Assembly: GCF_015694735.1 (NCBI RefSeq)
Contig: NZ_JADQDP010000001.1
Coordinates: 1,178,001 to 1,242,000 of the forward strand
Origin: Hymenobacter properus
Lineage (GTDB): Bacteria; Bacteroidota; Bacteroidia; Cytophagales; Hymenobacteraceae
Reading direction: 5' to 3'
DNA length: 64,000 bases
This document shows, piece by piece, positions 4,128-64,000 of this stretch; position 1 is the stretch's first letter, and each line of letters starts with the position of its first letter. The translations under genes and the position numbers were made by a program. The notes below the pieces were generated by a model, which did no database searches, was not told where the DNA came from, and saw nothing but the letters and a program-made list of their open reading frames with translations.

Positions 4128-4230
4128 GAAGGTAGTCTTTCAGTATTTCGGAAATTGGATACGAAGGTAAACAGCTAAGCGGGCGGGAAGATTCGCCGGT
4201 TTATTACTTAAATGTGCCCTATGCTGCCGT

Positions 4231-38438: not shown

Positions 38439-39512
38439 ATGCACAAAATCAAAAGCTTCGGCGTGTACACCGCCAAGGCCGACCTGAAAAACCCCATTTC
38501 CGACGCCACGCACACGCTCTCAGAAATCTCGTTTCTGGTGCTGCGCATCACCACCGAAACCGGCGTAGTGGGTGAGTCTTACCTGCTCAGCTTTCAGTAC
38601 AGCCCGCTCGCCATTGCCGGGGCGCTGAAAGACGCCGGCCAGCTGGTGCTCGGCGCCGAAGTGTCGGACACGGTGAAGGTGTTTGAGCAGCTCAACCACG
38701 CCAACGAGTACTTCGGCATGGAAGGCATCAACCGCTGGGCGCAGGCGGCTTACAACATTGCCATGTGGGATGCCTGGTGCAAAATCCTGGGTCAGCCCAT
38801 CTGGAAAGTGCTGGGCACCTCGCGCACCGAAGTGCCCATCTACGGCAGCGGCGGCTGGATTTCTTATTCGGTGGAGGAGCTGATTGGCGAGGTGAGCGGC
38901 TACAAGGCGCGCGGCTTCCAGGCCGTGAAAATCAAGGTGGGCAAGCCCGACTGGCGCGAAGACCTCGAGCGCCTGCGGCTAGTGCGCGAGGCCGTGGGCC
39001 TCGACATCGGCATCATGATGGACGCCAACCAGGGCATGACCGTGCCCAACGCCCTGGCCCTAGCCCGCGCCGCCCGCGAGCTCAACATCCAGTGGTTTGA
39101 GGAGCCCATTGCCCACGACGACTTCCAGGGCTACCAGCTGCTGCGCACCCAGGCGGGCATTTCGCTGGCCATGGGCGAGCGTGAATACTCCACCCTGCCG
39201 CTGCGCGAGCTGCTGCAGCGCAACGCCATCGACATCTGGCAGCCCGACATCTTGCGGCTGGGCGGCGTGGAAGCCTGGCGCAACAGCGCCGCGCTGGCCG
39301 GCAGCTTCAATATTCCTGTGCTGCCGCACTACTACAAAGACTACGACATTCCGCTGCTCTGCACCATCCCCAACGGCGCTGGTGCCGAGTCTTTCGACTG
39401 GATAGACCCGCTCATTGACCACCCGCTGGAAATCGTGAACGGCCTGGCCCGCCCGCACAACCGCCCAGGCTGGGGCTTCGGGTTTAAGGACGAGTGCCTG
39501 ACGGAGATTTAG
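38439..39512 (+). CDS. Mandelate racemase/muconate lactonizing enzyme family protein
   Basis: This 357-residue enolase-superfamily enzyme is of the MR/MLE type. The N-terminal capping domain is followed by a barrel with KxK (VKIKVGKPDW), metal ligands in IGIMMDANQGM, QWFEEPIAHDD and MGEREYS, and a general-base region VLPHYYKDYD. Such enzymes dehydrate acid sugars (for example rhamnonate, fuconate or galactonate) to 2-keto-3-deoxy acids. Next to pectin and rhamnosidase genes, a rhamnonate or galacturonate-derived substrate is plausible but not shown. It is cytoplasmic, with no signal. Confidence 0.88.
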   Translation: MHKIKSFGVYTAKADLKNPISDATHTLSEISFLVLRITTETGVVGESYLLSFQYSPLAIAGALKDAGQLVLGAEVSDTVKVFEQLNHANEYFGMEGINRWAQAAYNIAMWDAWCKILGQPIWKVLGTSRTEVPIYGSGGWISYSVEELIGEVSGYKARGFQAVKIKVGKPDWREDLERLRLVREAVGLDIGIMMDANQGMTVPNALALARAARELNIQWFEEPIAHDDFQGYQLLRTQAGISLAMGEREYSTLPLRELLQRNAIDIWQPDILRLGGVEAWRNSAALAGSFNIPVLPHYYKDYDIPLLCTIPNGAGAESFDWIDPLIDHPLEIVNGLARPHNRPGWGFGFKDECLTEI

Positions 39513-39642: not shown

Positions 39643-40410
39643 ATGACTTCCAAACTAGAATCCCTGTTCTCCCTACAAGGCAAGCGCATCATCGTCACTG
39701 GCGCTTCCAGCGGCTTAGGCCTCGACCAGGCCCTGACGCTGGCCCAGTGCGGCGCCCAAGTGTTTGCCCTGAGCCGCTCCGGCGGCATCAAGGTGGCCCA
39801 CGATGGATCGGTGCCGGAAAACATCACGTTCATGAAGCTGGACGTGACCGACGAAGCCGCCGTGAAAGAAGTGTTCGACGCCATCGGCACCGACGGCGGC
39901 ATCGATGTGCTGATTAACAATGCCGGCATCACCCAGCGCAAGCGGGCCGAAGCACTGAGCACGGCCGAGTGGGAAGCCATTCATGCCGTGAACGTGACCA
40001 GCGTATTTACCTGCTGCCGGGCCGCGTTTCCATACCTCAGCCAGTCGCCGCACGTCGGCCGCATCATCAACATCTCCTCGATGGCCTCCTACCTCGGGTT
40101 TGCGGAAGTGGTGCCATATAGCTCCAGCAAGTCGGCGGTGCTGGGCATCACCCGGGGCCTGGCCGTGGAGTGGAGCCAGTCGAACGTGCTGGTCAATTCG
40201 GTGTCGCCCGGCTGGTTTCCGTCGGAGATGAGCCAGCAGGTGATGGACGCCGACCGCCGACAGAAAATCCTGCAGCGCATGCCCCTGCACCGCTTCGGCC
40301 GCCCCGAGGAGCTGTCGGCGCTGGTGTGCTTCCTGGCCTCGCCCAGCGCCACCTACATCACCGGCCAGGATTTCAGCGTGGACGGCGGGGCGCTGGCGTT
40401 TGGGTTTTAG
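39643..40410 (+). CDS. SDR-family oxidoreductase
   Basis: This 255-residue classical short-chain dehydrogenase has TGASSGLG for cofactor binding, VLINNAGITQRKRAE, catalytic Ser in INISSMASY, catalytic VPYSSSKSAV (Tyr and Lys), and a C-terminal PSATYITGQDFSVDGG. It looks like gluconate 5-dehydrogenase or 2-keto-3-deoxy-sugar dehydrogenase relatives, which fits a role after the acid-sugar dehydratase upstream. The substrate is inferred. The first ATG gives a full domain. Confidence 0.9.
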   Translation: MTSKLESLFSLQGKRIIVTGASSGLGLDQALTLAQCGAQVFALSRSGGIKVAHDGSVPENITFMKLDVTDEAAVKEVFDAIGTDGGIDVLINNAGITQRKRAEALSTAEWEAIHAVNVTSVFTCCRAAFPYLSQSPHVGRIINISSMASYLGFAEVVPYSSSKSAVLGITRGLAVEWSQSNVLVNSVSPGWFPSEMSQQVMDADRRQKILQRMPLHRFGRPEELSALVCFLASPSATYITGQDFSVDGGALAFGF

Positions 40411-46229: not shown

Positions 46230-46322
46230 GCGCGCAAGCACCCACCAGTGCACGCGAAAACCCTCCTGTACTGTGCTGAAATTACATAGCCTATCCGTCT
46301 ATGCTGGCCGCGGCGCCGCCCC

Positions 46323-46731: not shown

Positions 46732-46739
46732 TACATTTG
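46732..46739 (+). promoter_or_regulatory. Candidate -7 promoter box for GH78
   Basis: TACATTTG matches the Bacteroidota -7 consensus TAnnTTTG exactly and lies 84 bp before the GH78 start codon. I do not see a matching TTG element about 19-21 bp upstream, so only the -7 half is supported. Confidence 0.4.
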
Positions 46740-46823
46740 TCAATGGCCTGCTTCAGGCCCGGTCCAATATTCTGTTCGTCTATCCATTCTGAGCCCAGCA
46801 CCGTCGCAGCCAAATTCAAGGCA

Positions 46824-49640: not shown

Positions 49641-49644
49641 TCGC

Positions 49645-50778
49645 ATGAAAATCAAGCTTGCCTCCTTCCTGCTAATCAGCGGCATGTGCCAACCGGCTTG
49701 GGCGCAGAAAGTGCTGCCAAAAGAAGTGCCTGCTGCCGAGATGCAGAAGGTGTACGAGGAGGTGAAGACGCCCCACAAATACGGCCTTGTCCTCGTGACG
49801 GATGACAACCAGAAGAAGATGGATTGCCCCAGCGTGTTCCGCAAAAACGGGCAGTGGTGGATGACCTACATCATCTTCGACGGGCGCGGCTACGAAACCT
49901 GGCTGGCCCAGAGCAAAGACCTGCTAAAGTGGGAAACCAAGGGCAAAATCCTGTCCTTCACGGACACCACTGATTGGGACACCAACCAAAAGGCCGGCTA
50001 CGTGGCCCTGCAAGACCCCAAGTGGGGCGGCAGCTACGAGTGGCAGCCTTACCAGGGGAAGTATTGGCTGTCGTACTTCGGCGGTAACTCGCGCGGGTAC
50101 GAAAAAGGCCTACTCTCCATCAGCCTGGCCTCGACCGACAAGGACCCCACCACCCTGCCCACGTGGCAGCGGCTTGCCAAACCGGTGCTGCGCCCCGACG
50201 ACAAGGACGTGCGCTGGTGGGAAAATCACACTATCTACAAAAGCTCCGTGACCTGGGACAAGGCCAAACTCACCGGCCACCCCTTCGTGATGTACTACAA
50301 CGCCAACGGCGACAGCCTCAACGCCAAACGCGGCGCTGAGCGCATCGGCATGGCCGTGAGCGACGACATGACGCACTGGCAGCGCTACCTGCGCAACCCC
50401 GTGCTGAACCACCACACCGGCATCACCGGCGACGCCTATTTGCAGAAGATGGACAGCGGCCTGTGGGTGATGTTCTACTTCGGCGCCTTCTACCCCGGCG
50501 TGAAGGGCGCCGTGAACCGCTTCGCTTGCTCCTACGACCTCACCCACTGGACCGACTGGACCGGTGCTAACCTGGTAGAACCCTCCGAGCCCTACGACGA
50601 GCTGTTTGCCCATAAGTCCTTCGTGCTGAAATACAAAGGCGTGGTGTACCACTACTACTGCGCCGTGAACAAGGCCGACCAGCGCGGCATTGCCGTGGCC
50701 ACGTCGAAGGACTTGGGCAAGAGTGCGGTGGCATTTATCGCGCCGCCGGTGAAGAAGCCGAAAGAGAGTAAAAAATAG
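49645..50778 (+). CDS. GH43/GH130-like five-bladed beta-propeller glycosidase
   Basis: This 377-residue secreted protein has a signal peptide (LASFLLISGMCQPAWAQ) and repeated propeller blades with MDCPSVFRKNGQWWMTYIIF, LAQSKDLLKWE, AVSDDMTHWQRY, and FACSYDLTHWTDW. The DCPS and blade motifs resemble GH43/GH130-type glycosidases, but I cannot assign the exact family or locate all catalytic acids. It starts 4 bp after GH78, so an operon with it is likely. The stop is 7 bp before repeat F. Confidence 0.75.
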   Translation: MKIKLASFLLISGMCQPAWAQKVLPKEVPAAEMQKVYEEVKTPHKYGLVLVTDDNQKKMDCPSVFRKNGQWWMTYIIFDGRGYETWLAQSKDLLKWETKGKILSFTDTTDWDTNQKAGYVALQDPKWGGSYEWQPYQGKYWLSYFGGNSRGYEKGLLSISLASTDKDPTTLPTWQRLAKPVLRPDDKDVRWWENHTIYKSSVTWDKAKLTGHPFVMYYNANGDSLNAKRGAERIGMAVSDDMTHWQRYLRNPVLNHHTGITGDAYLQKMDSGLWVMFYFGAFYPGVKGAVNRFACSYDLTHWTDWTGANLVEPSEPYDELFAHKSFVLKYKGVVYHYYCAVNKADQRGIAVATSKDLGKSAVAFIAPPVKKPKESKK

Positions 50779-50784
50779 GCGGTT

Positions 50785-50870
50785 ATGCAGAGCGTAGCGA
50801 AGCATCTCGCTCGCTTTGTTCGCACGGTTGATTTACTACCCCGAGCGAGATGCTTCGCTGCGCTCTGCAT
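50785..50870. repeat. Palindromic intergenic repeat, copy F
   Basis: Arms of 29 bp (50785-50813, 50842-50870) differ at one position. The core is GCAGAGCGTAGCGAAGCATC. The loop shares CGCAC-GTTGATTTACTA with copy E. It lies between the propeller glycosidase and the first GH2 gene. Confidence 0.93.
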
Positions 50871-50899
50871 GACGTTCTGATATTCCAAAATCCCACCCA

Positions 50900-53320
50900 A
50901 TGCCCCGTCTGCTCGCCCTGTTTCTACTGTTGCTCAGCGCAGCCAATACGGCTTTTGGCGCACAGCCGTCGGCGCGGGTCACGGCTGATTTCAACAAAGG
51001 CTGGAAGTTCTATCTGGGCGACGAAGCCGGTGCGAAAGAATCGGCTTTTGACGATGCCGCGTGGCGAAAACTCACGCTGCCGCATGACTGGAGTATTGAA
51101 GGCAAATTCGATGAGAAGAACCCCGCCAAGCCCGAGGGCGGCGGCTTGCCCACCGGCATCGGCTGGTACCGCAAGACGTTCACGCTACCGGCCACAGCGG
51201 GGCGCAACGTGTTTGTTGAGTTCGACGGCGTGTATAAGCACAGCGAGGTGTGGCTGAACGGTCATTCTCTTGGCTACCGGCCGAACGGCTACATCTCCTT
51301 CCGCTACGAACTGACGCCCTATCTGCGCCCCGCCGGCCAGCCCAACGTGCTGGCCGTGCGCGTCGACAACTCGGCCCAGCCGGACTCGCGGTGGTACACT
51401 GGCTCGGGCATCTACCGCAACGTGCGGCTGGTGACAACGCATCAGGTGGCCGTGGACGAGTGGGGCACCTTCGTGAGTACGCCCGCCGTGAGCGCCCAAG
51501 CCGCTACTGTGGCCGCGGTCACGCAGTTGCGAAATGCCACCGGCAAGCCGCAAACGGTGACGCTGCAAACGGTGCTGTTGGACGCAAGTGGGAAGGAAAT
51601 AGTGCGCCAGTTGACAACGAGCGTGAAACTGAGCGGCGCAACAACCACAGTATCGCAAAAACTTACCCTGAAGAATCCGCAGCTCTGGTCGGTGACCAAG
51701 CCTTATTTGTACCGGGTGAAAACCACGGTGCTGACGGGACGGACAATTGAGGACGAATATGAAACACCGCTGGGCATTCGCACCTGCGTTTTCGATAGCC
51801 AGAAGGGCTTTCTGCTGAACGGCCAGCCGCTGCGCATCCAGGGCGTGAACCAGCACCACGACCTGGGGGCGCTGGGGGCGGCATTTAACGTGCGGGCGGC
51901 TGAGCGGCAGTTGCAGATTTTGCGCGCTATGGGCTGCAACGCCATTCGGATGTCGCACAACCCGCCCGCGCCGCAATTGCTGGATTTGTGTGACCGCATG
52001 GGCTTTCTGGTAATGGACGAGGCGTTTGACATGTGGCAGAAAAAGAAGAACGGCCAAGATTACCACCTTGACTTCAAGCAGTGGCACCAGCGCGACTTGG
52101 AAGACCAGATTCGGCGCGACCGCAACCACCCGAGCGTATTCATCTGGAGCATCGGCAACGAAATTCGCGAGCAGTTCGACAGCACCGGCACCCGCCTCGC
52201 CCGCGAGCTGACCGCCACCGTGAAGCGCCTCGACCCCACGCGCCCCGTCACTTCAGCCCTCACGGAGCAGGAGCCGGCTAAGAACTTCATCAGCCAAGCC
52301 AACGTGCTCGACGTGCTGAGCTTCAATTACAAGCACGCTGACTACCCCAAACTGCCCACCAGCTTCCCCGGTCAGCATTTCCTGGCTACCGAAATAGCGG
52401 CCGCCTACGAAACGCGCGGCCACTACGACCTGCCCTCCGACAGCCTGCGCATCTGGCCCAAAGACGGCAAAACCAAACTCACCACCGGCAACTCCGACTT
52501 CACCGCTTCCAGCTACGACCAAGCCGCGCCCTACTGGGGCGCCACCCACGAGGCAGCTTGGTGGGGCGTCAAGAACAGCCCGTTCATCAGCGGGGCCTTC
52601 GTGTGGAGCGGCTTCGACTACCTGGGCGAGCCCCTGCCCTACCCCTGGCCGGCGCGCAGCTCCTACTTCGGCCTCATCGACCTAGCCGGCTTCCCCAAAG
52701 ACGCCTACTACCTCTACCAAAGCGAGTGGACCAACCAACCCGTGCTGCACCTGCTGCCGCACTGGAACTGGCGCCCTGGCCAAACCGTGGACGTGTGGGT
52801 CTACTACAGTCAAGCCGATGAGGTGGAGCTTTTTCTAAATGGTAAGTCGCTGGGCACGAAAAAGAAAGGCGCCGACGACCTGCACGTGATGTGGCGCGTG
52901 CCTTACGTCCCCGGCACACTGCAAGCCATTTCGCGCCGCGCCGGCAAAACTGTGCTGACCAGCACCGTAAAAACCGCCGGCCCCGCCGCCAAAATCGAGT
53001 TAACCGCCGACCGTAGCCAACTGCAAGCCAACGGCAAAGACTTGTCTTTTGTGACGGTTCGTGTGCTGGATGCGGCTGGCAACCTGGTGCCCGATGCGGC
53101 CAACCTGGTGAAGTTTTCGGTGAGCGGGCCTGGTTTTATTGCGGGCGTGGACAATGGGTACCAGGCTAGCATGGAGTCATTTAAGGCGCCTGAGCGCAAG
53201 ACTTACAATGGGATGGCGCTGGCCATTATTCAGACGATGGAGAAGGGCGGGGCCATTACGCTTCGGGCAGATGCTGAGGGACCGACTAGCGCAACAGTAA
53301 CGCTTCAAAGTCAGCCCTAA
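50900..53320 (+). CDS. GH2 beta-galactosidase family protein
   Basis: This 806-residue secreted GH2 enzyme has a signal peptide (LLALFLLLLSAANTAFG), a sugar-binding jelly roll (KLTLPHDWSIEG, GIGWYRKTF), Ig-like domains and the catalytic barrel. The acid/base is Glu421 in FIWSIGNEIRE and the nucleophile candidate is Glu498 in FLATEIAAAYETRG. The C-terminal part has DUF4982 and Ig-like segments (VDVWVYYSQADEVELFLNGK; LSFVTVRVLDAAGNLVPDA). It likely removes beta-linked galactose from pectic side chains. The second GH2 gene follows 148 bp later. Confidence 0.92.
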   Translation: MPRLLALFLLLLSAANTAFGAQPSARVTADFNKGWKFYLGDEAGAKESAFDDAAWRKLTLPHDWSIEGKFDEKNPAKPEGGGLPTGIGWYRKTFTLPATAGRNVFVEFDGVYKHSEVWLNGHSLGYRPNGYISFRYELTPYLRPAGQPNVLAVRVDNSAQPDSRWYTGSGIYRNVRLVTTHQVAVDEWGTFVSTPAVSAQAATVAAVTQLRNATGKPQTVTLQTVLLDASGKEIVRQLTTSVKLSGATTTVSQKLTLKNPQLWSVTKPYLYRVKTTVLTGRTIEDEYETPLGIRTCVFDSQKGFLLNGQPLRIQGVNQHHDLGALGAAFNVRAAERQLQILRAMGCNAIRMSHNPPAPQLLDLCDRMGFLVMDEAFDMWQKKKNGQDYHLDFKQWHQRDLEDQIRRDRNHPSVFIWSIGNEIREQFDSTGTRLARELTATVKRLDPTRPVTSALTEQEPAKNFISQANVLDVLSFNYKHADYPKLPTSFPGQHFLATEIAAAYETRGHYDLPSDSLRIWPKDGKTKLTTGNSDFTASSYDQAAPYWGATHEAAWWGVKNSPFISGAFVWSGFDYLGEPLPYPWPARSSYFGLIDLAGFPKDAYYLYQSEWTNQPVLHLLPHWNWRPGQTVDVWVYYSQADEVELFLNGKSLGTKKKGADDLHVMWRVPYVPGTLQAISRRAGKTVLTSTVKTAGPAAKIELTADRSQLQANGKDLSFVTVRVLDAAGNLVPDAANLVKFSVSGPGFIAGVDNGYQASMESFKAPERKTYNGMALAIIQTMEKGGAITLRADAEGPTSATVTLQSQP

Positions 53321-53468
53321 TGGCTTACCCCTGCTCCTACTGGAGGAATAAGGGAGCCACGGGATTAAAGAATTGACTAAAATGAGAATGACTAGAATTC
53401 ATATTCCATTTTTTTCCAGAGCGAAATGCCGCCTGGCTCCTCTTCTCCGCTGGAGAGGGGACTGGGGG

Positions 53469-56400
53469 ATGAAGCCCCATGTCTGGTGTATCCTGCTCCT
53501 CCTGCCCTTCCTAGGACGCGCCCAGGAGGCCAGCGTCTATTTCTTCCCCAACGTCTCGCACGCACCAGTCATCTACCCCGGCCCCGAGGCCGACGGCTAC
53601 CAGATTCCGCAGCTTACCGAAATCAACCGCGACCGGGCTCGCGCCACGGCCTACTCATTCGCTTCTGAGAAGGACGCGCTGACGGGCAACCGCAGCCTTA
53701 GCTCGCGTGTGCAGTCGCTCAATGGCTTGTGGGATTTCAGCTTCGCCAGCAAGCCCACTGATGCGCCCCGCGACTTCTACAAAAGCCGCGTGAAGGGCTG
53801 GAAGCAGCTGGCCGTGCCCTCCAACTGGGAGCTGAACGGCTACGACCTGCCCATTTACAAGAGCGCCAAGTACCCGTTTCGGCCCGTTGACCCGCCGTTC
53901 GTGCCGCAGGACTACAACGGCGTGGGCTCGTACCAGCGCAGCTTCACGGTGCCGGCCGGCTGGCAAAGCCAGAACGTGACGCTGCACTTCGGCGGCGTCA
54001 GCTCGGCGTTTAAAGTGTGGGTGAACGGGAAGTTTCTGGGCTACGGCGAGGACAGCTGCCTGCCCTCTGAGTTCAACGTGACGCCTTATTTGCAGGGCGG
54101 CGAAAATGTGGTGTCGGTGCAGGTAATGCGCTGGTCGGATGGCTCCTACCTCGAAGACCAGGACCACTGGCGGCTGAGCGGCATCTTCCGCGAGGTGCTG
54201 CTGCTGGCCGAGCCCAAGCTGCGCATTGCCGACTTCCACTGGCAGGCCAAGCTCGACAAGGACTACAAGGACGCGGTGCTGAGCATCCGCCCGCGCCTCG
54301 AAAATCTGACCGGCAACAACGACCTCGGCGGCTACCAGGTAGCGGCGCAGCTTTATGACCGGCAGGGCAAGCCGGTGCTGGAAAAACCCCTGCAAATCAC
54401 AGCCGACGGCATCCTAAATGAGAAGTATCCGCGCCTCGACAACGCCAAGTTCGGTCTGCTCGAAACCACCGTGCGCAACCCGCTGAAGTGGAGCGACGAG
54501 GCGCCCAACCTCTACACGCTGGTGCTCACCCTCACCGACAAAACCGGCGCGGTGCTCGAAGCCAAGAGCTGCCGGGTAGGCTTCCGTAGCATTGAATTCT
54601 CGAAGGATAACGGCAAGCTGCTCATCAACGGCAAGCTCACCTACCTCTACGGCGTGAACCGCCACGACCACCACCCCGCCAAGGGCATGGCCGTGAGCCG
54701 CGACGACATTCGGGAAGATGTGCGCACGCTCAAGCAGTTTAATTTCAACTGCATTCGCACTAGCCACTACCCCAACGACCCCTACTTCTACGACCTCTGC
54801 GACGAGTACGGCATCCTCGTCATCGACGAGGCCAACCTCGAAACCCACGGCCTGGGCTCCAAGCTGAGCAACGACCCGGCCTGGACCGCCGCCTACCAGG
54901 AGCGCAGCATGCGCATGGCCCTGCGCGACAAAAACCACCCCAGTATCATCTTCTGGAGCCTGGGCAACGAGAGCGGCCGCGGCCCCAACCACGCCGCCAT
55001 GGCTGCCTGGCTGCGCGATTTCGACATCACCCGGCCCATCCACTACGAGCCCGCGCAGGGCGACCCGCACCTGCCCGGCTACATCGACCCCTCCGACCCA
55101 AACTACCCCAAAAACCACGCCTACCGCATCCAGGTGCCGCGCGACCAGCCCTACGTGGACATGGTGAGCCGCATGTACCCCGGCCTGTTCACGGGCGAGC
55201 TACTGGCCAACCAGCCGAACGGCGATACCCGCCCCATTTTCTTCTGCGAGTACGCCCACTCCATGGGCAACGCCACCGGCAACATGAAGGAATTTTGGGA
55301 CGGCTGGCGCGCCACCAAGCGCGTGATTGGTGGCTGCATCTGGGAGTTTAAAGACCAGGGCCTGCTGAAAAAAGACTCGACCGGTACCGCGTTTTACGCC
55401 TATGGCGGCGACTTTCAGGAGAAATACTACGACGACTTCACCATCAAAGGCATCGTGGCTTCGGACGGCAAGCCGCACGCCGCCATCTACGAGTGCAAGC
55501 GCGTGTATCAGCCGCTGGAATGCACCCTGGTGGATGCCGTCAAGGGCCTCGTACGAATAGAAAACCGCGCCGCACTGCTCAACGCCGACACCTACGCCGC
55601 CGCGCTGATTCTGCGCGAGAACGGCCGCATTATCAGCACCAAACCACTTCCCCGACTGCGGTTGGCAGCCGGGCGCGACACGGTAATTTCCCTGGCGAAA
55701 TACCTGCCCAAGCTGAAAGCTGACGCGGAGTACCTGGCTAATATTTCCTTCACCTTGCCCCAACTGACGGCCTGGGCCGCTGCGGGCCACGAAGTCGCTA
55801 CCAACCAGCTGGCCCTCACCGGCCTAGCCCAGCCCCAGGCGGCCTCGGGCAAGCAGCCAGCTGTGGCCGTACGCAACGATGCGACGGCTTACCAGCTAAG
55901 CGGCAAGGACTTTCAGGTAACCATTGACAAGGCCAGCGGGGCCCTCACCTCCTACCGTTACCGCGGCACCGAGCAGCTGGCGGCTCCGCTGCTGCCTCAC
56001 TTCACCCGCCCCCTTACCGACAACGACCGGCGCGGCTGGAAGGCCGACAAGAAGCTGAAAGAGTGGTTTGCGGCCGAGCCCAAGCTGCAAAGCCTGACGC
56101 TGGACCAAAGTAACGCCAGCCGCCCGAGCCTCATGAGCACCTACGCCCTCATCGACGGCAAAACCACCGCGCGCGTGACCTACACGCTGAACGGCGACGG
56201 CGCCTTGAAAGTGGATTACGCCCTCACGCCCGCCGCCGGCCTGCCCAACATTCCGCGCGTGGGCATGCAGCTCGGTATCAAGCGCGCCTACGACAACATC
56301 AGCTTCTACGGCCGGGGCCCCCTGGAAAACTACATCGACCGCCGCTACGGCTTCGACGCGGGCATTTACTCGCAGCCGCTAAGCGAGTTTGCTGACTCCT

Positions 56401-56816
56401 ACGTGGTGCCGATGGAATACGCCAACCGCACCGACGTGCGCTGGATGCAGCTCGCCGACAAGCAAAACACCGGCCTGCTGGTGGTAGCTGACAGCATGCT
56501 GAGCATGAGCGCCTGGCCCTACACCGAGCAGAACATCCGGCAAGCCCGGCACACCAACAAGCTGAAAGACGCCGGCTTTATCACCCTCAACATCGACCTC
56601 GCCCAGATGGGCGTGGGCGGCAACACCAGCTGGGACGCCCAGGCCGCCCCGATTGACAAATACCAGCTGCCCTCGAAACCTTATAGCTACAGCTTCTACC
56701 TGCTACCCGTCAGCGGCAAAAAGGATGCGAGCAAACTGGCTCAAAGCATTCGCTTTGCTAATCAACCCACTGAACGTCATGCAGAGCGCAGCGAAGCATC
56801 TCGCGTGCTGAAGTAA
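53469..56816 (+). CDS. GH2 beta-galactosidase, LacZ type (large)
   Basis: This 1115-residue LacZ-like GH2 protein has a signal peptide (VWCILLLLPFLGRAQ), N-terminal jelly-roll (PSNWELNGYDLPIYKS), Ig-like domain, barrel with VNRHDHHPAKGMAV, acid/base Glu501 in FWSLGNESGRGPNH, nucleophile Glu594 in FFCEYAHSMGNATG, and C-terminal beta-sandwich domains with FYGRGPLENYIDR. The start at 53469 is chosen because the 32 upstream codons cover a common GC-rich intergenic motif. The last 13 residues (RHAERSEASRVLK) come from palindromic repeat G, so the native stop has been displaced. Confidence 0.93.
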   Translation: MKPHVWCILLLLPFLGRAQEASVYFFPNVSHAPVIYPGPEADGYQIPQLTEINRDRARATAYSFASEKDALTGNRSLSSRVQSLNGLWDFSFASKPTDAPRDFYKSRVKGWKQLAVPSNWELNGYDLPIYKSAKYPFRPVDPPFVPQDYNGVGSYQRSFTVPAGWQSQNVTLHFGGVSSAFKVWVNGKFLGYGEDSCLPSEFNVTPYLQGGENVVSVQVMRWSDGSYLEDQDHWRLSGIFREVLLLAEPKLRIADFHWQAKLDKDYKDAVLSIRPRLENLTGNNDLGGYQVAAQLYDRQGKPVLEKPLQITADGILNEKYPRLDNAKFGLLETTVRNPLKWSDEAPNLYTLVLTLTDKTGAVLEAKSCRVGFRSIEFSKDNGKLLINGKLTYLYGVNRHDHHPAKGMAVSRDDIREDVRTLKQFNFNCIRTSHYPNDPYFYDLCDEYGILVIDEANLETHGLGSKLSNDPAWTAAYQERSMRMALRDKNHPSIIFWSLGNESGRGPNHAAMAAWLRDFDITRPIHYEPAQGDPHLPGYIDPSDPNYPKNHAYRIQVPRDQPYVDMVSRMYPGLFTGELLANQPNGDTRPIFFCEYAHSMGNATGNMKEFWDGWRATKRVIGGCIWEFKDQGLLKKDSTGTAFYAYGGDFQEKYYDDFTIKGIVASDGKPHAAIYECKRVYQPLECTLVDAVKGLVRIENRAALLNADTYAAALILRENGRIISTKPLPRLRLAAGRDTVISLAKYLPKLKADAEYLANISFTLPQLTAWAAAGHEVATNQLALTGLAQPQAASGKQPAVAVRNDATAYQLSGKDFQVTIDKASGALTSYRYRGTEQLAAPLLPHFTRPLTDNDRRGWKADKKLKEWFAAEPKLQSLTLDQSNASRPSLMSTYALIDGKTTARVTYTLNGDGALKVDYALTPAAGLPNIPRVGMQLGIKRAYDNISFYGRGPLENYIDRRYGFDAGIYSQPLSEFADSYVVPMEYANRTDVRWMQLADKQNTGLLVVADSMLSMSAWPYTEQNIRQARHTNKLKDAGFITLNIDLAQMGVGGNTSWDAQAAPIDKYQLPSKPYSYSFYLLPVSGKKDASKLAQSIRFANQPTERHAERSEASRVLK

Positions 56817-56870
56817 TTCCTAGCGTCAACAACGAAGCGAGCGAGATGCTTCGCTGCGCTCTGCATGACG
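56775..56870. repeat. Palindromic intergenic repeat, copy G, overlapping a coding end
   Basis: Perfect 30-bp arms (56775-56804, 56841-56870). The left arm lies inside the large GH2 gene and encodes its final RHAERSEASR; the stop codon is at 56814-56816 in the loop. The right arm is just upstream of the solute-binding-like gene. Confidence 0.95.
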
Positions 56871-56893: not shown

Positions 56894-58051
56894 ATGCCCA
56901 CCGACCACATCCACCTCAAAGGCATCACGTGGAACCACAGCCGCGGCTTCGTGCCGATGGCTGCCACTGCCCAACGCTTCTCGGAGCTGAACCCGAACGT
57001 GAGCATCACTTGGGAGAAACGCTCGCTGCAACAGTTCGCCGACGAGTCGATACAGCAATTGGCCGAGCGGTTCGACTTGCTGGTGATTGACCACCCGTGG
57101 GCCGGCTTTGCGGCGCGTACCGGCTCCATTCTGCCGTTGGATGAGTACCTGCCCGCCGAGTTTCTGGTCGACCAGCAAGCCAACACCGTGGGTCACTCCT
57201 TCGAAAGCTACAGCTTCAACGGCCACCAGTGGGCCTTGCCCATCGACGCGGCTACGCCCGTAGCCGCCAGCCGCCCCGACCTACTGGCCCAGCACGGCCT
57301 GGCCCTGCCCGAAACCTTCGCCGACCTCTTGGCCCTGGCCGACCGCGGCTTGGTGGCCTTCGCGCTCATCCCCATCGACACGCTGATGAGTTTCTACATG
57401 TTCTGCTGCTCGCTGGACGAAGACCCCTGCCAGCGCGAAAACGAAGTGGTGAGCGAGGCCGTGGGCGTGCAGGCCCTGCAGATGTTCCGCGAGCTGGCCA
57501 GCAAGGTGGACCCGGCCTGCTTCCACCGCAACCCCATTCAGGTGTACGAGGCTATGACGCAGACCGACGCGCTGGCCTACTGCCCCTTCGCCTATGGCTA
57601 TTCCAACTACGCCCGCCGCGGCTACGCCCGCCGCCTGCTGCACTTCCACGACATGGTAAGCCTAGCGCCCGGTGGCACCCGCCTACGCAGCACGCTCGGC
57701 GGCACCGGCCTGGCCATCTCGGCCAAGTGCGCCGACGTAGCCACCGCCGTGCGCTACGCCGAGTTCGTGGCCTCGCCCACCTGCCAGCAAACGCTGTATT
57801 TCGACAACGGCGGCCAACCCGGCCACCTCGCCGCCTGGCAGGACGCGCAGGTGAACGCACAGTCCAGCAACTATTTTGCGGCCACGCTGCCGGCTTTGCA
57901 GCGCGCCTTCCTGCGCCCACGCTACCACGGCCACATGTACTTCCAAGACCACGCCGGCGAGCCCGTGCGCCAGTACTTGATGCACGGCGGCGACGAGCGC
58001 GCCCTGCTGCGCGAGCTGAACGAGCTATATGTGAAATCCAGAACGATGTAA
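56894..58051 (+). CDS. Solute-binding-protein-like fold, no signal peptide
   Basis: This 385-residue protein looks like a sugar ABC transporter substrate-binding protein (ITWNHSRGFVPMAATAQRFSEL, LVIDHPWAGFA, ALPIDAATPVAASRPDLL, GGTGLAISAKCADVATAV, EFVASPTCQQTLYF). The start at 56894 (MPTDHIHLKG) has no hydrophobic signal or lipobox, and the longer frame from 56846 is derived from a repeat, so the protein is probably cytoplasmic. No permease or ATPase genes are nearby. It precedes the double CoA-transferase gene, which suggests a metabolic rather than uptake role. No catalytic function can be assigned. Confidence 0.75.
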   Translation: MPTDHIHLKGITWNHSRGFVPMAATAQRFSELNPNVSITWEKRSLQQFADESIQQLAERFDLLVIDHPWAGFAARTGSILPLDEYLPAEFLVDQQANTVGHSFESYSFNGHQWALPIDAATPVAASRPDLLAQHGLALPETFADLLALADRGLVAFALIPIDTLMSFYMFCCSLDEDPCQRENEVVSEAVGVQALQMFRELASKVDPACFHRNPIQVYEAMTQTDALAYCPFAYGYSNYARRGYARRLLHFHDMVSLAPGGTRLRSTLGGTGLAISAKCADVATAVRYAEFVASPTCQQTLYFDNGGQPGHLAAWQDAQVNAQSSNYFAATLPALQRAFLRPRYHGHMYFQDHAGEPVRQYLMHGGDERALLRELNELYVKSRTM

Positions 58052-58157
58052 CGTGGACTCTGCGAGTCCGCGCAACGAGCGTAGCGAGTGACTCGCGCCT
58101 TCACCGTCCTTACGCCAATACTCGCAGTGCTCGTTGCGCGGACTCGCAGAGTCCACG
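58052..58157. repeat. Palindromic intergenic repeat of a second family, copy J
   Basis: Perfect 29-bp arms (58052-58080 and 58129-58157) with core TGGACTCTGCGAGTCCGCGC. The sequence differs from the main family. It begins right after the stop codon of the first solute-binding-like gene and ends 21 bp before the CoA-transferase start. Confidence 0.93.
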
Positions 58158-58178
58158 CAACATCACAACCAACAATCT

Positions 58179-60554
58179 ATGTCTCTCCCCCTCTCCGGCC
58201 TACTAGTCATCGAATTTAGCCAGTTCCTAGCCGCGCCCTCGGCGGGCCTGCGGCTGGCCGACCTCGGCGCGCGCGTCATTAAAATTGAGCGGCCGGGCAC
58301 CGGCGAGGCCGGCCGGCAGATTGCCATCAAAAACCTGTTTGTGGAAGACAGCAGCCTGGTGTTTCACACCATCAACCGCAATAAGGAATCCTACGCCGCC
58401 GACCTCAAGAATCCCGATGACCTGGCCCAGGTGAAGCAGCTGTTGGCCCGGGCTGACGTGATGACCCACAACTTCCGGCCGGGCATCATGGAAAAAATCG
58501 GCCTCGGCTACGACGATGTGCGCGCCCTGAACCCGCGCCTCATCTACGGCGTGGTGACGGGCTACGGACCCACTGGTCCCTGGGCCACCAAGCCGGGGCA
58601 GGATTTGCTGATTCAGTCAATGTCGGGCCTCACATACTTGTCGGGCACGAAGGATGACGGCCCCACGCCTTTCGGTATTGCCGTGGCCGATATTATTTGC
58701 GGCTCGCACTTCGCGCAAGGGCTGCTGGCGGCGCTGGTCCGGCGCGATAAAACCGACCGGGGCGCTCTGGTCGAAGTCAGCTTGCTGGAATCGGTGCTCG
58801 ACATGCAGTTTGAGCTGCTGACCACCCACCTGAACGACGGCGGCCAGCTGCCGCAACGCGGTGCGGCGCGCGGCACCGCTCATCCTTACCTGAGCGCCCC
58901 CTACGGCATCTATCAAACTCAGGACGGCTACCTGGCTCTGGCCATGGGCAACCTGGATAAGCTCGATACCACGCTGAACCTGGGCATTCTGGCTGACTAC
59001 CCCACGGCAAATTCCTGGTTCGACGGCCGCGACGACATCAGTGCCCGCTTAGCCGCAGCCTTGCGCGAAGCCTCCACCGCCACCTGGCTCGCGAAGCTGG
59101 AGCCACTGGGCATCTGGTGCGCTGAGGTGCTGAACTACCAGCAGGCCACCAGCAGCCCCGGCTTCGAGGTGCTGGGAATAAAGCAGCTGGTGAACCTCAG
59201 TAACGGGCAGCAGCTAGCCACCACGCGCTGCCCCATCCGCATTGATGGCGAACGATTGTATTCAGACAAGGCGGCGCCCCGACCGGGAGTTGACACGGAG
59301 GCTATTCGGGCGGAATTTGGTCTTGTGTCAGAGGCTAGCCTCCCCTCTTTGCGTGCTGGCCTTTGGGAGAGTGAGGTTAGTGCAGCGAGCAAACCGCTCG
59401 ATGGCCTGCTGGTAGTTGATTTCAGCCAGTTTCTTTCCGGCCCCTCGGCCGCCCTGCGGCTGGCTGACCTCGGAGCGCGTGTTATCAAAATTGAGCGGCC
59501 CGAAACGGGCGACATCTGCCGACACCTCTACACTTCGAACATCATTATGAACGGCGAGTCGTCGGTGTTTCACGCCATCAACCGCAACAAGGAAAGCTTC
59601 GCCGTCGACCTCAAAAACGAGGACGACAAAGCTCGGGTGTGGGAACTGCTCGCCCGCGCCGACGTGGTGATGCACAACTACCGCCCCGGCGTGATGGAGC
59701 GCCTCGGCTTCGACTACGCCCGCGTGCAAGCGCAGAACCCCAACGTGGTGTACGGCGAAATATCCGGCTACGGCCCCGAAGGCCCCTGGCGCGATAAGCC
59801 CGGTCAGGACCTACTGCTACAATCCGTGTCGGGCCTGACCTGGCTGAGCGGCAACGCCGATGCTGGCCCCGTGCCCATGGGCCTGTCCATCGTGGATATG
59901 CTGGCAGGGGCGCACCTGGCGCAGGGACTGCTGGCCTGCCTCGTGCGGCGCGGCCGAAGCGGCGCGGGCGGGCTGGTGCAGGTGAGCATGCTGGAATCGG
60001 CCTTCGATTTTCAGTTCGAAACCATCACCACCTTCTTCAACGACGGTGGCGCGCTGCCCGAGCGCACCCGACATAATAACGCCCACGCCTACCTTGGCGC
60101 GCCCTACGGCATCTACCAGACCAGCAACGGCTTCCTGGCCCTGGCCATGGGCTCAATTCCCAAGCTGGGCCAGCTGCTGGGCTGTCCGGCGTTGCTGAGC
60201 TACGGGGAAGTGGCGCAGGCTTTCACGCAGCGCGACGAGATAAAAGCCACCCTGGCCGCGCACCTGCGCACCGCCACCACCGAAGCCTGGCTGGCCGTGC
60301 TGGAGCCCGCCGACATCTGGTGCGCCAACGTGCTGACCTGGGACAAGCTGCTGGCGCACGAAGGCTTCGCGGCGCTGAACATGGTGCAAGAGGTGACAAT
60401 GGCTGACGGCTACCGCTACCGCACCACGCGTTGCCCCATCCGCCTCGATGGCGAGTTGCTGACCTCGTCCGTGGGCTCCCCCCAACTGGGCCAGGACAAC
60501 GCCGCCATCCTGGCCGAACTAGCCACTTTGCAACCCGCCCGCCATGACGCCTGA
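58179..60554 (+). CDS. Tandemly fused CaiB/BaiF family CoA-transferase
   Basis: This 791-residue protein is two complete class III CoA-transferase units in one chain. Unit 1 (residues about 5-385) has [20 protein letters not shown] and ends near FGLVSE. Unit 2 (about 407-791) has [20 protein letters not shown]. Each has the CaiB/BaiF signature [16 protein letters not shown] and a catalytic-type Asp (Asp171 in VADIICG, Asp573 in IVDMLAG). Native enzymes of this family are interlocked homodimers, so a tandem fusion could form an intrachain pair. It would transfer CoA between carboxylic acids. It overlaps the next gene by 11 bp. Confidence 0.9.
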
Positions 60555-61785
60555 GCCCACCGTTTTCCGCATTGCCGTGCGCAAGTTTGGCCCGTTCGAA
60601 AGTGCCATGGCGAAGCTGTGGTCGGGCTTCTGCGAGGAAACCGGCTGCCCGCTAGCTGTGGAGATGGTGCCCATGGACCTGCACGAGCTACACGCCAGCC
60701 TGCTCACGGATGAAGGTCTTAAAAATGGCGCCTGGGACGTGGCCCACATCAGCACCGACTGGCTGGCCGAAGCTCAAGCCGTCGATGCCCTAGAAAACCT
60801 CGTGCCCTACCTCACTCCGAACCCGCCAGTTGATTTTCCGCAGGGCTGGAGTCCCTCACTTTTAGGCATGCAGCAATTTGGCGACGCCGTGCTGGGACTA
60901 CCTTTCCACGACGGGCCTGAGTGCCTGATTTACCGCCGCGACTTGTTTGAGAACCCCGCCGAGCAAGCGGCCTTCCAGCAACAGCACGGCCGGCCGCTGC
61001 AAGTGCCCGAAACCTGGGAGGAATTCCAGGCCGTGGCACGCTTCTTCCAGCGCCCTGCCAACAATTTGTACGGCCTCGTAGCCGCTGGCTACCCCGACGG
61101 CCACAACACGGTCTTCGACTTCTGCCTGCACCTCTGGACGCGTGGCGGCCAGCTGGTTGACACCCAAGGTCAGGTGCGCATCGACAGTGCTGCGGCGACC
61201 GAGGGGCTCGCGTTCTACCGGGAGTTGCTCCGCGACCACGCCGCCGCGCATCCACAGACCATGCAGTATGAGTCGGTAACGGCCGGTCAGGCCTTTGCGC
61301 GCGGCGAAGCGGCTATGATGGTTAACTGGTTTGGCTTTGCGGCCGTGTGCGACGTGGATACTGCTTGCCCGGTAAGGGGCCAGGTCGATATTGCCCCAAT
61401 TCCACAGGGCGCGGGCGGGCAGTCGGCTTCGCTGAACGTGTACTGGCTCTACGCCATCGGCGCGGGCAGCCGGTACAAGGATGTGGCCTACGAGTTTCTG
61501 CGCTACGCCACCCGCCCCGAAAACGACAAGTTGCTGACGCTGGAAGGCGGCATCGGCTGCCGGATTTCGACCTGGCACGACGCTGACATTAATGGCCTCG
61601 TGCCCTACTATCACAAGCTGGAGCAACTGCACCAACAGGCCGAAACGCTGCCCCGCCACACCAACTGGGCGCGCATCGCCGCCATTATTGACGAAGTGGT
61701 GCTGCAAGCCATCAACACCGACGCGCCGGTGGCCGAGCTACTCGCCGCGGGCCAACAGAAAATCAACTCGCTTGACCATGTTTAA
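60544..61785 (+). CDS. Second solute-binding-protein-like fold, no signal peptide
   Basis: This 413-residue protein also resembles sugar-type solute-binding proteins: [86 protein letters not shown], and [20 protein letters not shown]. It begins MTPEPTVF with no signal peptide or lipobox, so it should be cytoplasmic. It overlaps the CoA-transferase upstream by 11 bp and the oxidoreductase downstream by 8 bp, which points to tight coupling. It is likely a partner of the first such gene, but the ligand is unknown. Confidence 0.78.
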
Positions 61786-62881
61786 CATCGACAGCCACGA
61801 AATCAACTACCTGCCCGTGCTGCCGCAGCGGCCGTTGCCCATCGTCATCATCGGAGCTGGCGGCATCGTGAACGACGCGCATTTGCCAGCCTACCGCAAG
61901 GCCGGGTTTGAGGTCGTCGGCATCACCAACCGCACCCGGGCCCGGGCCGAAAAGCTGGCCGCTACCTGGGGCATCCCGCACGTGTACGACTCGGTGGCCG
62001 AGGCCGTGGCCCACGCGCCCGCCAATGCCGTGTACGACATCACCATCATGCCCGAGCAGTTTGTAGAAACGCTAAACCAATTGCCTGATGGTGCGGGTGT
62101 GCTGATTCAGAAGCCCATGGGCGACTACTTCTGGCAAAGCCAGGAAATACTGGAGGTGTGCCGCCGCAAGAACCTGGTGGCCGCCATCAACTGCCAGCTG
62201 CGCTTTGCGCCCTACGTGGCCGCCGCCCGCGAAATGCTGCGCCAGGGCCTTATCGGGGAGCTGTACGATATGGAAGTGCGCGTGACACTGGAGACACCCT
62301 GGGAGCTGTTTCCGCACGTGATGGTGCACCCACGCCTCGAAATTCAGTACCACAGCATCCACTACATCGACCTGATTCGCAGCTTTCTGGGCGAGCCCGC
62401 TCGCGTGCTGGCCAAGACGCTGCGGCACCCCGCCAAGGCGCTGTCCTCGTCGCGCTCCACCATTCTGTTCGACTACGGCGACACGATGCACGCCGTCATC
62501 AACACCAACCACGACCATTCCTTCGGCCCCGAAAACCAGGAGAGCTTTATCAAATGGGAAGGCACAAAAGGCGCCATCAAGGCCCGCATGGGCCTGCTGA
62601 TGGACTACCCGAACGGCGTGCCCGACAAGTTTGAGTACTGCCTGCTGCGCGAGGGCGAAAAGCCGGTATGGCACACCGTGGCGTTGGAAGGTTCGTGGTT
62701 TCCGGATGCCTTCATGGGCACAATGGGCAGCCTGATGCGCTATAAAAACGGCGAAACAGACGTGCTGCCCACCAGCGTGGAAGACGTGATAAAAACCATG
62801 GCCGTGGTGGAAGCAGCTTATGCGTCGAGCGACGGCAACGCCACAACAAGTGGCTCTAACCGCGAAAATGTTACGTCATAA
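61778..62881 (+). CDS. Gfo/Idh/MocA family oxidoreductase
   Basis: This 367-residue NAD(P)-dependent enzyme has an N-terminal Rossmann fold (PIVIIGAGGIVNDAHLPAYR, VVGITNRTRARAEKLAATWG), GVLIQKPMGDYF in place of the usual EKP motif, and a C-terminal beta-sheet domain with YHSIHYIDLIRSFLGEP. It most likely oxidises or reduces a sugar or sugar acid. The start at 61778 (MFNIDSH) overlaps the second solute-binding-like gene by 8 bp. It sits between that gene and MaoC, in line with a catabolic operon. Confidence 0.9.
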   Translation: MFNIDSHEINYLPVLPQRPLPIVIIGAGGIVNDAHLPAYRKAGFEVVGITNRTRARAEKLAATWGIPHVYDSVAEAVAHAPANAVYDITIMPEQFVETLNQLPDGAGVLIQKPMGDYFWQSQEILEVCRRKNLVAAINCQLRFAPYVAAAREMLRQGLIGELYDMEVRVTLETPWELFPHVMVHPRLEIQYHSIHYIDLIRSFLGEPARVLAKTLRHPAKALSSSRSTILFDYGDTMHAVINTNHDHSFGPENQESFIKWEGTKGAIKARMGLLMDYPNGVPDKFEYCLLREGEKPVWHTVALEGSWFPDAFMGTMGSLMRYKNGETDVLPTSVEDVIKTMAVVEAAYASSDGNATTSGSNRENVTS

Positions 62882-62886
62882 AGTAG

Positions 62887-62973
62887 GTCATGCAGCGCGC
62901 AGCGAAGCATCTCGTGTGCGCGACGCAATTAGTTACTGCCACAAGCGAGATGCTTCGCTGCGCGCTGCATGAC
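62887..62973. repeat. Palindromic intergenic repeat, copy H
   Basis: Perfect 28-bp arms (62887-62914, 62946-62973) with core GCAGCGCGCAGCGAAGCATC. It starts 5 bp after the Gfo/Idh/MocA stop and lies before the MaoC gene, inside the presumed operon. Confidence 0.95.
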
Positions 62974-63030
62974 GGTCTGGGTTTGACTATCCAGCCCAGC
63001 AACTAAAAACGAGTAATTGACTACCAACTC

Positions 63031-63474
63031 ATGTACTTCAAATCGACTTTTTTCGAAGACTACACCCTCGGCGATAAGCGCGTGACGCTGGGCCGCACCA
63101 TCACCGAAACCGACTTCGTGGTACACGCCGGTCACACGGGCGACTTCTTCCCCCACCACCTCGACGCGGAGTGGAGCAAAACCCAGCCCTTCGGCCAGCG
63201 CATTGCGCACGGCACCATGATTTTCAGCATCGGCATCGGCCTCACCGCCTCGGAAATCAACCCCGAAGCCTTCTCCAAAGGCTACGACCGGCTGCGCTTC
63301 GTGAAACCCGTTTTCATTGGCAACACCATCCACTCAGAAGTTACGATTTCGGCCAAGGAAGAAGGCAAAAAGCCCGGCTACGGCACCGTTACTGAGCACG
63401 TGGAAGTCATCAACGAGCGCGGCGAAGTGGTGCTGGCCTGCGACCACCTGCTGGTGGTGAAATTGCGCGCTTGA
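63031..63474 (+). CDS. MaoC family dehydratase (hot-dog fold)
   Basis: This 147-residue protein has a MaoC/R-hydratase hot-dog domain: [20 protein letters not shown], then [18 protein letters not shown] and [17 protein letters not shown]. The family hydrates or dehydrates acyl-CoA thioesters. Next to a CoA-transferase it could act on a CoA-activated sugar-derived acid, which is inference. The Asp and His of the hydratase-2 motif region are conserved. It is cytosolic with no signal. Confidence 0.88.
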
Positions 63475-63490
63475 GACCATCAATAAAACG

Positions 63491-63579
63491 GTCATGCTGA
63501 GCGCAGCCGAAGCATCTCTACCGCATTGGTAATTGATTGCATTGCGCGGTAGAGATGCTTCGGCTGCGCTCAGTATGAC
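63491..63579. repeat. Palindromic intergenic repeat, copy I
   Basis: Arms of 34 bp (63491-63524, 63546-63579) differ at one position. The core is CTGAGCGCAGCCGAAGCATC, close to copy B. It lies between MaoC and the sugar permease. Confidence 0.95.
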
Positions 63580-63616
63580 GCCCTTTTTCTCATTCTTGTA
63601 ACTCAAATCCCACCCC

Positions 63617-64000
63617 ATGGCCCTTGCTCCTGCTTCCACCCCGCCACCCGTTGCTACCGGCAGCCCCGCCAGTGGCCGCGCCTACCTGCTGCCGTTTATT
63701 CTGGTGGTGGGTGTGTTTTTCCTGTGGGGCATGGCGCATAGCCTCGACTCCATCCTGATTCCGCACCTTCAGAAAGCCTGCCAACTCAACAACCGGCAGT
63801 CAACCTTCGTGGACACGGCCGTGTTTCTGGCTTACTTCCTGATGGCCATTCCGGCCGGGATATTGCTCAAGCGGCTGGGCTACAAGGCCACCATCATTCT
63901 GGGGCTGCTGGCCTTTGCGGGCGGGGCGTTTCTGTTCGTGCCGGCTGCTGACGCCCGCTCCTACGGCCTGTTTCTGGCCGCGCTGTTCATCATTGGCTGC
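63617..64000 (+). CDS. FucP-like MFS sugar permease (3' end outside window)
   Basis: Only the first 128 residues are visible; the gene runs off the right edge. They show the start of an MFS sugar:proton symporter of the FucP type: LLPFILVVGVFFLWGMAHSL, DSILIPHLQKACQLNNRQST, VDTAVFLAYFLMAIPAGILL and KRLGYKATIILGLLAFAGGA. This is typical of Bacteroidota L-fucose/L-rhamnose/galactose permease homologues. It fits uptake of a sugar released by the secreted enzymes upstream. The substrate is unknown. Confidence 0.88.
   Translation, partial: MALAPASTPPPVATGSPASGRAYLLPFILVVGVFFLWGMAHSLDSILIPHLQKACQLNNRQSTFVDTAVFLAYFLMAIPAGILLKRLGYKATIILGLLAFAGGAFLFVPAADARSYGLFLAALFIIGC

Follow-up and report, generated by a model that had tools for sequence, protein, structure and literature searches.

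Class III (CaiB/BaiF) coenzyme A (CoA) transferases shift CoA between acids, proteins of the MaoC and crotonase families act on acyl-CoA, and Gfo/Idh/MocA enzymes oxidise sugars. The fold of solute-binding proteins (SBPs) also occurs in enzymes, such as MqnA, MqnD and thiaminase I, and the oxidative (non-phosphorylative) pathway for L-fucose and L-rhamnose has, to our knowledge, no CoA-transferase, MaoC or SBP step. Here we analyse an operon in which these families stand together, at the end of a 64,000-nucleotide stretch of DNA from Hymenobacter properus (contig NZ_JADQDP010000001.1, positions 1,178,001 to 1,242,000; the whole stretch is called the window below), whose genome comprises 5.54 Mb in 9 contigs. 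In this operon two SBPs, SBP1 and SBP2, are placed on both sides of a double class III CoA-transferase. All parts are of known families, in the context of a sugar pathway of a familiar kind; what is new is the pair of an intracellular receptor and a CoA-transferase, which is a real and conserved unit that crosses phyla. An earlier note on this DNA, made from the letters alone, knew of no described pathway of such make-up, and we found no description of the SBP/CoA-transferase unit in the open-licence PubMed Central (PMC) literature; excerpts of two articles discuss fucose transport and catabolic gaps and do not mention it (PMC11378808, PMC9007349).

The families of the window genes were assigned by a Pfam profile scan, and NCBIfam scores were set against the cut-offs of the models. 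The genes, starts, stops and overlaps are all as the earlier note wrote them, and Pfam agrees on each family:

56894..58051, + strand: SBP1, solute-binding-protein fold without recognisable signal, 385 aa, ATG at 56894 and stop at 58051 (Pfam SBP_bac_1/SBP_bac_8)
58179..60554, + strand: double class III (CaiB/BaiF) CoA-transferase, halves A and B, ATG at 58179 and stop at 60554 (two PF02515, CoA_transf_3, stretches, 636 bits)
60544..61785, + strand: SBP2, second solute-binding-protein fold without recognisable signal, 413 aa (Pfam SBP_bac_1/SBP_bac_8; mean pLDDT 93.2; Foldseek 6dtq_A, E 9.4e-31; tree)
61778..62881, + strand: Gfo/Idh/MocA oxidoreductase, probable sugar dehydrogenase, ATG at 61778 and stop at 62881 (Pfam GFO_IDH_MocA)
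63031..63474, + strand: MaoC hydratase/dehydratase (Pfam MaoC_dehydratas)
63617..64000, + strand: FucP-like symporter of the major facilitator superfamily (MFS), which leaves the window (Pfam MFS_1; FucP models on the partial protein) and is complete as L004 7618-8922

The CoA-transferase gene overlaps that of SBP2 by 11 bp, and the latter overlaps the Gfo/Idh/MocA gene by 8 bp. The CoA-transferase resembles class III enzymes such as the formyl-CoA:oxalate and succinate:HMG CoA-transferases: it contains PF02515 twice, has 10uh, 4hl6 and 9br6 among its nearest solved structures and keeps the catalytic-type Asp. It differs in that its listed NCBIfam scores all fall below cut-off, that it is paired with an SBP and that it occurs as two paralogues in Bacteroidota. 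Unlike the CUT1-type receptors of ATP-binding cassette (ABC) transporters (SmoF, TMBP, MalE3), the SBPs have neither a recognisable signal nor an ABC partner in the operon, and are fixed beside the CoA-transferase. MqnA, MqnD and thiaminase I provide a precedent for receptor folds turned catalytic, but their partners are different; none of them appeared among the sequence matches listed or among the 50 structural matches listed.

The earlier note had asked for the same neighbourhood in relatives, and the order is conserved. Among the best 80 named Bacteroidota loci found by a scan with the SBP1 alignment, which are the most similar relatives and biased to Pedobacter, the series SBP1, CoA-transferase, SBP2, Gfo/Idh/MocA lies on one strand in 77, and the six-gene order including MaoC and MFS is kept in 66. 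Two of the three shorter loci are small contigs of 5.7-6.3 kb (L080 and L082), the third, from Pedobacter (L088), being a real exception. A MaoC gene is present in 72 of the 80, lying 2-5 kb further downstream in L130 and L133, and the MFS gene in 66, in such a way that a RhaT-like gene, in or next to the operon, replaces it in all 11 flavobacterial loci. Gene picking overlooked SBP2 in four Hymenobacter loci (L058, L059, L060 and L064), where it is recovered by tblastn. The fused CoA-transferase is found in only 7/80 loci, the halves being mostly separate genes, and the fusion is therefore a local detail. A fairer sampling was obtained from an even draw of 395 Bacteroidota genomes, 21 of which match, 19 with the SBP1/CoA-transferase type (the own genome included) and two weakly, at 27-30% identity. 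A CoA-transferase lies within 1.5 kb of SBP1 in 17 of the 18 other genomes, and the MFS gene is kept in other genomes of this draw. Both the 77/80 order and this pairing rule out a chance cluster. Within the genus the distribution is patchy, a CoA-transferase match of at least 81% over at least half of the query being found in 5 of 36 other Hymenobacter genomes.

The unit extends beyond Bacteroidota into Alphaproteobacteria and a Streptomyces, with SBP1 and the CoA-transferase as its core. SBP1 was found at 31-62% identity in plasmid records of Sinorhizobium, Ensifer, Shinella, Labrenzia, Azospirillum, Streptomyces and others, 145 in number, with coverage of 80% or more in 144; a joined CoA-transferase and SBP1 query reached that coverage in 141 records, so that the pair nearly always stays together, as judged from the totals of both lists and not record by record. 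In Ensifer PDNC004 a stretch of about 15 kb holds a second MaoC type (MaoC2), CoA-transferase, SBP1, an amidohydrolase, an IclR gene and an ABC sugar transporter, together with an enolase-superfamily enzyme, L-rhamnose mutarotase, Gfo/Idh/MocA, MaoC, a short-chain dehydrogenase/reductase (SDR), a fumarylacetoacetate hydrolase (FAH)-type hydrolase and L-fuconate dehydratase. The transporter has its own receptor with a hydrophobic N-terminus, besides SBP1. All these cluster genes are present in Labrenzia, and most of them in Qingshengfaniella, Shinella, Ponticoccus and a record named Roseateles. Between Ensifer and Hymenobacter the identity is 74% for MaoC, 51% and 56% for the CoA-transferase halves, 45% for Gfo/Idh/MocA and 38.5% for SBP1. 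SBP2 has no special alphaproteobacterial relative, the Ensifer ABC receptor reaching 26% and a Rhizobium etli receptor of another cluster scoring higher. In Sinorhizobium meliloti CP140955 (pSymB) the genes of SBP1 and CoA-transferase overlap by 4 bp. In pSymB of S. meliloti 1021 the CoA-transferase match lies in two frames (L168 9301-10457), other S. meliloti rows being listed unbroken.

The claim that both SBPs lack a signal peptide and a lipobox was upheld across relatives by a heuristic, which is not SignalP and demands a mean hydropathy of 2.0 over 12 residues within the first 50, also from the longest start. This threshold was reached by 0/79 SBP1 and 0/74 SBP2 frames, in comparison with 7/11 ABC receptors; a loose lipobox expression picked 10/74 SBP2, none of them reaching the threshold, and 0/79 SBP1. 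As for a longer true start with a hidden signal, which the earlier note had named as fatal to an intracellular role, the longer SBP1 start at 56846 adds only MLRCALHDGHHKKRTP, which contains no hydrophobic stretch and falls in a dispersed inverted-repeat element. The other objection foreseen was an ABC permease and ATPase alongside; inspected by eye, the frames listed for the 18 kb that begin with SBP1 include neither. Farther upstream, at 23-33 kb and still within the window, there are two ABC-ATPase-like frames. Among neighbour clusters common to at least 3 of the 80 loci, no cognate permease or ATPase was seen either, by eye and in scanned representatives. SBP1 and SBP2 are thus predicted to be cytosolic, supporting the use of SBP folds inside the cell. 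Where relatives are named in public records, they are called 'extracellular solute-binding protein' or 'multiple sugar transport system substrate-binding protein' (as seen in the best 120 matches for each SBP out of 5,754 for SBP1 and 2,559 for SBP2 at E 1e-3 or better, of mixed types); for this group, predicted to be cytosolic and metabolic, these transporter-type names are probably wrong. In L089 and L101, sugar-kinase-, ABC-permease- and ABC-ATPase-like frames (by eye) are found near 17.7-21.1 kb on the opposite strand, 7-10 kb downstream of SBP1.

AlphaFold2 models of both proteins (mean pLDDT of 88.6 for SBP1, that of SBP2 being listed above) were compared structurally with Foldseek, and in this comparison with solute-binding proteins, which the earlier note had proposed, both are predicted to adopt full two-lobed sugar-receptor folds. 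Polar residues invariant in 47/47 aligned Bacteroidota SBP1 include H15, R17, D66, H67, D118, R127 and R341. In the alignment to 6jai, whose residue roles were taken from entry titles, R341 falls on R356, mutated in the ligand complexes of that receptor, and the W287 position is Thr. In the trees, where several long branches were flagged by the program and kept in, the SBP1 of Bacteroidota, Pseudomonadota and Actinomycetota (the last a single sequence) stand on one side of a branch with 100/100 support, and SBP2 groups on the ABC-receptor side, apart from SBP1, which sits on a long branch. By this topology, SBP1 and SBP2 are of separate origin, and a simple SBP duplication paralleling that of the CoA-transferase is ruled out, with the long branches in mind.

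The CoA-transferase keeps the catalytic-type Asp in 79/79 A domains, 79/79 B domains and 10/10 other CoA-transferases, as counted from alignment columns (158 A/B rows; a stricter expression missed 51/157 domains). The same column is Ala in the solved chain 5yiy and Asp in 5yit. A and B group as sisters at moderate support (92/81), which places the duplication probably within Bacteroidota. The GD..PHH motif, with its Asp/His pair, is present in 65/67 MaoC proteins, both exceptions being MaoC2; the closest solved chain is 4ffu_A (E 6e-65), and the named relatives include the PaaZ hydratase domain. MaoC2 adjoins the CoA-transferase in Ensifer, Labrenzia and two Flavivirga loci, and an annotated enoyl-CoA hydratase accompanies the pair in one Streptomyces and two Sinorhizobium records. 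In most settings read, the SBP1/CoA-transferase pair is thus accompanied by a hydratase, of varying family; the stretches read of S. meliloti CP140955 and Microvirga showed none. Among solved structures, the Gfo/Idh/MocA protein matches 5uhw and four other entries best, with E 1.3e-14 over residues 25-356; we take these entries to be apiose dehydrogenases.

The SBP2 position is variable, SBP2 being absent in 6/18 sampled genomes. In L170-L173 an amidohydrolase follows directly after the second CoA-transferase, at the usual place of SBP2. These amidohydrolases are 49-55% identical to each other and 29-30% to that of Hymenobacter L160, and the two that were scanned have L-fucono-1,5-lactonase as best NCBIfam model (151 and 159 bits, cut-off 400). 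This subtype was not seen together with SBP2 in any of 101 tabulated loci, of about 20 kb or less each. L180 and L184 carry SBP1, both CoA-transferases and enoyl-CoA-hydratase (crotonase)-like and aldehyde-dehydrogenase-like frames, named by resemblance to scanned flavobacterial proteins, and no SBP2, Gfo/Idh/MocA, MaoC or amidohydrolase was seen there. L171 has in one run MaoC, SBP1, both CoA-transferases, amidohydrolase, a RhaT-like gene, Gfo/Idh/MocA, MaoC2 (74% to Ensifer), SDRs and FAH (53%), and this single run ties the Bacteroidota and alphaproteobacterial versions together. Across all these variants, SBP1 and the CoA-transferase are the constant part.

The neighbours of the operon suggest a link to the oxidative L-fucose/L-rhamnose pathway. 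The Ensifer and Labrenzia loci hold a mutarotase, amidohydrolase, fuconate dehydratase, SDR and FAH hydrolase, the Ensifer FAH scoring 427 bits with NF053535 (cut-off 500), and a similar set is found in 8/18 sampled Bacteroidota, in which the operon is divergent to SDR, amidohydrolase and alcohol-dehydrogenase-like frames (by eye), with FAH in 7/8. In Hymenobacter (L160) a candidate SDR/FAH/amidohydrolase set is placed about 77 kb past the end of the window, outside its operon; the best NCBIfam models are 2,4-didehydro-3-deoxy-L-rhamnonate hydrolase for the FAH (343 bits, cut-off 500) and L-fucono-1,5-lactonase for the amidohydrolase (297 bits, cut-off 400). The hydrolase clusters near the 80 loci, identified, as the transporter clusters, by scanning one representative of each, are GH106 (52 loci), GH2 (51), GH78-type rhamnosidase (48) and a rhamnosidase-like family (24), next to a further large unscanned cluster (28); a GH29 fucosidase is found in three flavobacterial loci.

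Taken from these sequences, the neighbourhood suggests 6-deoxy-L-sugars of the fucose/rhamnose type rather than galacturonate, which is disfavoured by the rhamnosidases, fucosidases, RhaT/FucP and fucose-type genes. Of the earlier proposal of a CoA-thioester route for a sugar-derived acid from pectin, the route stays as the best explanation and galacturonate falls; pectin may still be the polymer source, having in mind the GH28-like gene at 44706-46253 in the window. The acids handled may differ between lineages, because in six Mucilaginibacter/Arcticibacter loci (L114, L119, L121-L123 and L079) the operon runs on past the MFS gene into an OiaX-like RuBisCO-like protein, an OiaK-like kinase and an Asp/Glu racemase-like gene (one of each scanned; OiaX 517 and OiaK 481 bits, under cut-offs of 700), that is, genes like the 3-oxo-isoapionate kinase and decarboxylase. 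This continuation and the 5uhw relatives recall the D-apiose/D-apionate pathway (ApsD, OiaK, OiaX), from which the window differs in that no OiaX- or OiaK-like gene is found behind its operon in the part that was read. O-methyl-fucose or -rhamnose, L-aceric acid, D-apiose and L-galactose were considered and may also be substrates, no result being decisive for any.

We propose, with a probability of roughly 0.45, that SBP1 and SBP2 are cytosolic substrate-binding partners of a class III CoA-transferase that activates a 6-deoxy-sugar acid for MaoC; the complex, the substrate and the reactions are what we infer. Glycoside hydrolases and a FucP- or RhaT-type symporter would deliver the sugar, the Gfo/Idh/MocA enzyme would oxidise it to a lactone, and this would be opened by a lactonase (the amidohydrolase, or whatever SBP2 does in its place). 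SBP1 would then hand the acid to the CoA-transferase for loading with CoA, MaoC, MaoC2 or a crotonase would eliminate or add water or another group at the activated carbon of the thioester, and the products would enter the oxidative L-fucose/L-rhamnose pathway. In its simplest form, the acid would be activated and would then undergo elimination or hydration, SBP1 serving as the dedicated binding partner. The PaaZ hydratase domain hydrates a ring enol ether, and since it is among the MaoC relatives, an enol-ether or O-alkyl sugar acid as MaoC substrate is a speculation by analogy. A wider version, in which ABC-type receptors entered the cytosol at least twice and became fixed as CoA-transferase subunits, SBP1 as an ancient substrate-loader and SBP2 joining later in place of a lactonase and perhaps having become an enzyme, so that three phyla could use 6-deoxy sugars, or O-modified versions of them, by way of CoA, appears to us possible and somewhat doubtful.

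Several observations weigh against the proposal of CoA-transferase partners. We are not aware of any class III CoA-transferase that depends on an SBP, and the oxidative fucose pathway, as far as we know it, needs no CoA. SBP1 is less conserved across phyla (38%) than the enzymes (45-74%). In the Pedobacter exception L088 there are matches to SBP1 and CoA-transferase and no other core gene, and in one genome (G342; L169 and L177) SBP1 lies about 60 kb from both CoA-transferases, SBP2 and MaoC on the same contig. A Microvirga locus (L140) carries SBP1 with no CoA-transferase within the 19 kb read. The lone S. meliloti pair of CP140955, with no other cluster gene within 12 kb, is a split cluster and no independent unit, because strain 1021 has the amidohydrolase at a distance of about 10 kb and CP140883 has MaoC at about 18 kb. 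Thalassospira marina (L165) shares with the alphaproteobacterial clusters the transporter (63-75%), the mutarotase, the SDR, the FAH and the dehydratases, but the 13 kb read contain neither CoA-transferase nor SBP1, Gfo/Idh/MocA or MaoC; the place of the module is taken by an aldo/keto reductase (3801-4844), which was not found in the six module-bearing loci searched (L147-L150, L152 and L153). Since this fucose-type set exists without it, the module gives the impression of an addition to an L-fucose-type pathway, or of a bypass around it. As a separate observation, the SBP1 gene of G342 adjoins an IclR gene and a fucosidase-like frame.

Three other explanations of the SBPs have to be considered. 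One or both could be SBP-fold enzymes, SBP2 possibly being a sugar lactonase or other hydro-lyase, as the replacement of SBP2 by an amidohydrolase in L170-L173, the failure of both to occur together and the many polar SBP1 residues kept in 47/47 would suggest. However, only four loci show the swap, with two further SBP2-less loci in which no amidohydrolase was seen, and in eight loci SBP2 occurs alongside another kind of amidohydrolase, encoded in the adjacent gene set, so that the lactonase may come from elsewhere; conservation by itself is no proof of catalysis. We consider this reading unlikely. Still lower in our estimation, and improbable, is a non-catalytic role as intracellular sugar buffers or sensors, which would bind an inducer and tune the operon or the CoA-transferase. 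The SBP fold is a binding fold, and an IclR-type gene lies within 10 kb in 39/80 loci, but the pair persists without an IclR gene in the 25 kb read of S. meliloti CP140955, where a LysR-type gene is present at a distance of 4.7 kb, and is found in different sugar clusters.

That they are ordinary ABC receptors, with a missed signal or an unusual export and serving a distant transporter, would agree with their sequence family, fold and public annotation, and with the ABC-like frames on the other strand in L089 and L101. This is very improbable, as no SBP1 or SBP2 frame reached the hydropathy threshold even from the longest start, a result on which the hidden-signal version was rejected; moreover, SBP1 is accompanied in the alphaproteobacterial clusters by ABC permeases, an ATPase and a receptor of their own, whose N-terminus is hydrophobic, and the transporter in or next to the 80 operons is MFS (66) or RhaT-like (11). 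The partnership of the SBPs with the CoA-transferase, if true, would give deoxy-sugar breakdown, on land as well as at sea, a further branch through CoA thioesters, and would be a clear case of a transport receptor turned enzyme partner. The gene pair is carried by soil and marine bacteria of several groups, with operons near plant- and algal-sugar genes.

Other features of the window were also annotated:

38439..39512, + strand: enolase-superfamily (MR/MLE) sugar-acid dehydratase-like protein, possibly of the same pathway (Pfam MR_MLE; 32.5% to the MR/MLE protein of the Ensifer cluster)
39643..40410, + strand: SDR dehydrogenase, possibly of the same pathway (Pfam adh_short; 31.6% to the SDR of the Ensifer cluster)
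46737..56816, + strand: co-oriented glycoside hydrolases as context, namely a GH78-type alpha-L-rhamnosidase, a weak GH32-like and two GH2 (Pfam)
7756-7839, 39529-39612, 44568-44659, 50782-50873, 56776-56869, 62887-62973: inverted pairs of the repeat CTTCGCTGCGCTCTGCATGAC

Past the permease, in the 18 kb from SBP1 (10 kb beyond the permease), GH106, GH127, acetylesterase and DUF5703 frames are found, the GH106 call resting on a scanned relative (L118). The closest solved relative of the enolase-superfamily protein is 3,6-anhydro-L-galactonate cycloisomerase (E 2.5e-51). Upstream of the Flavivirga algicola operon, the genes at L136 1630-4425 presumably encode proteins resembling, by eye, cytochrome P450 and ferredoxin reductase.

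The 21-bp repeat forms six inverted pairs in the window with at most 2 mismatches and starts 63-73 bp apart, its 12 matches comparing with 0.01 expected. It looks like a dispersed palindromic element, and it yields false upstream starts, such as MLRCALHDG.

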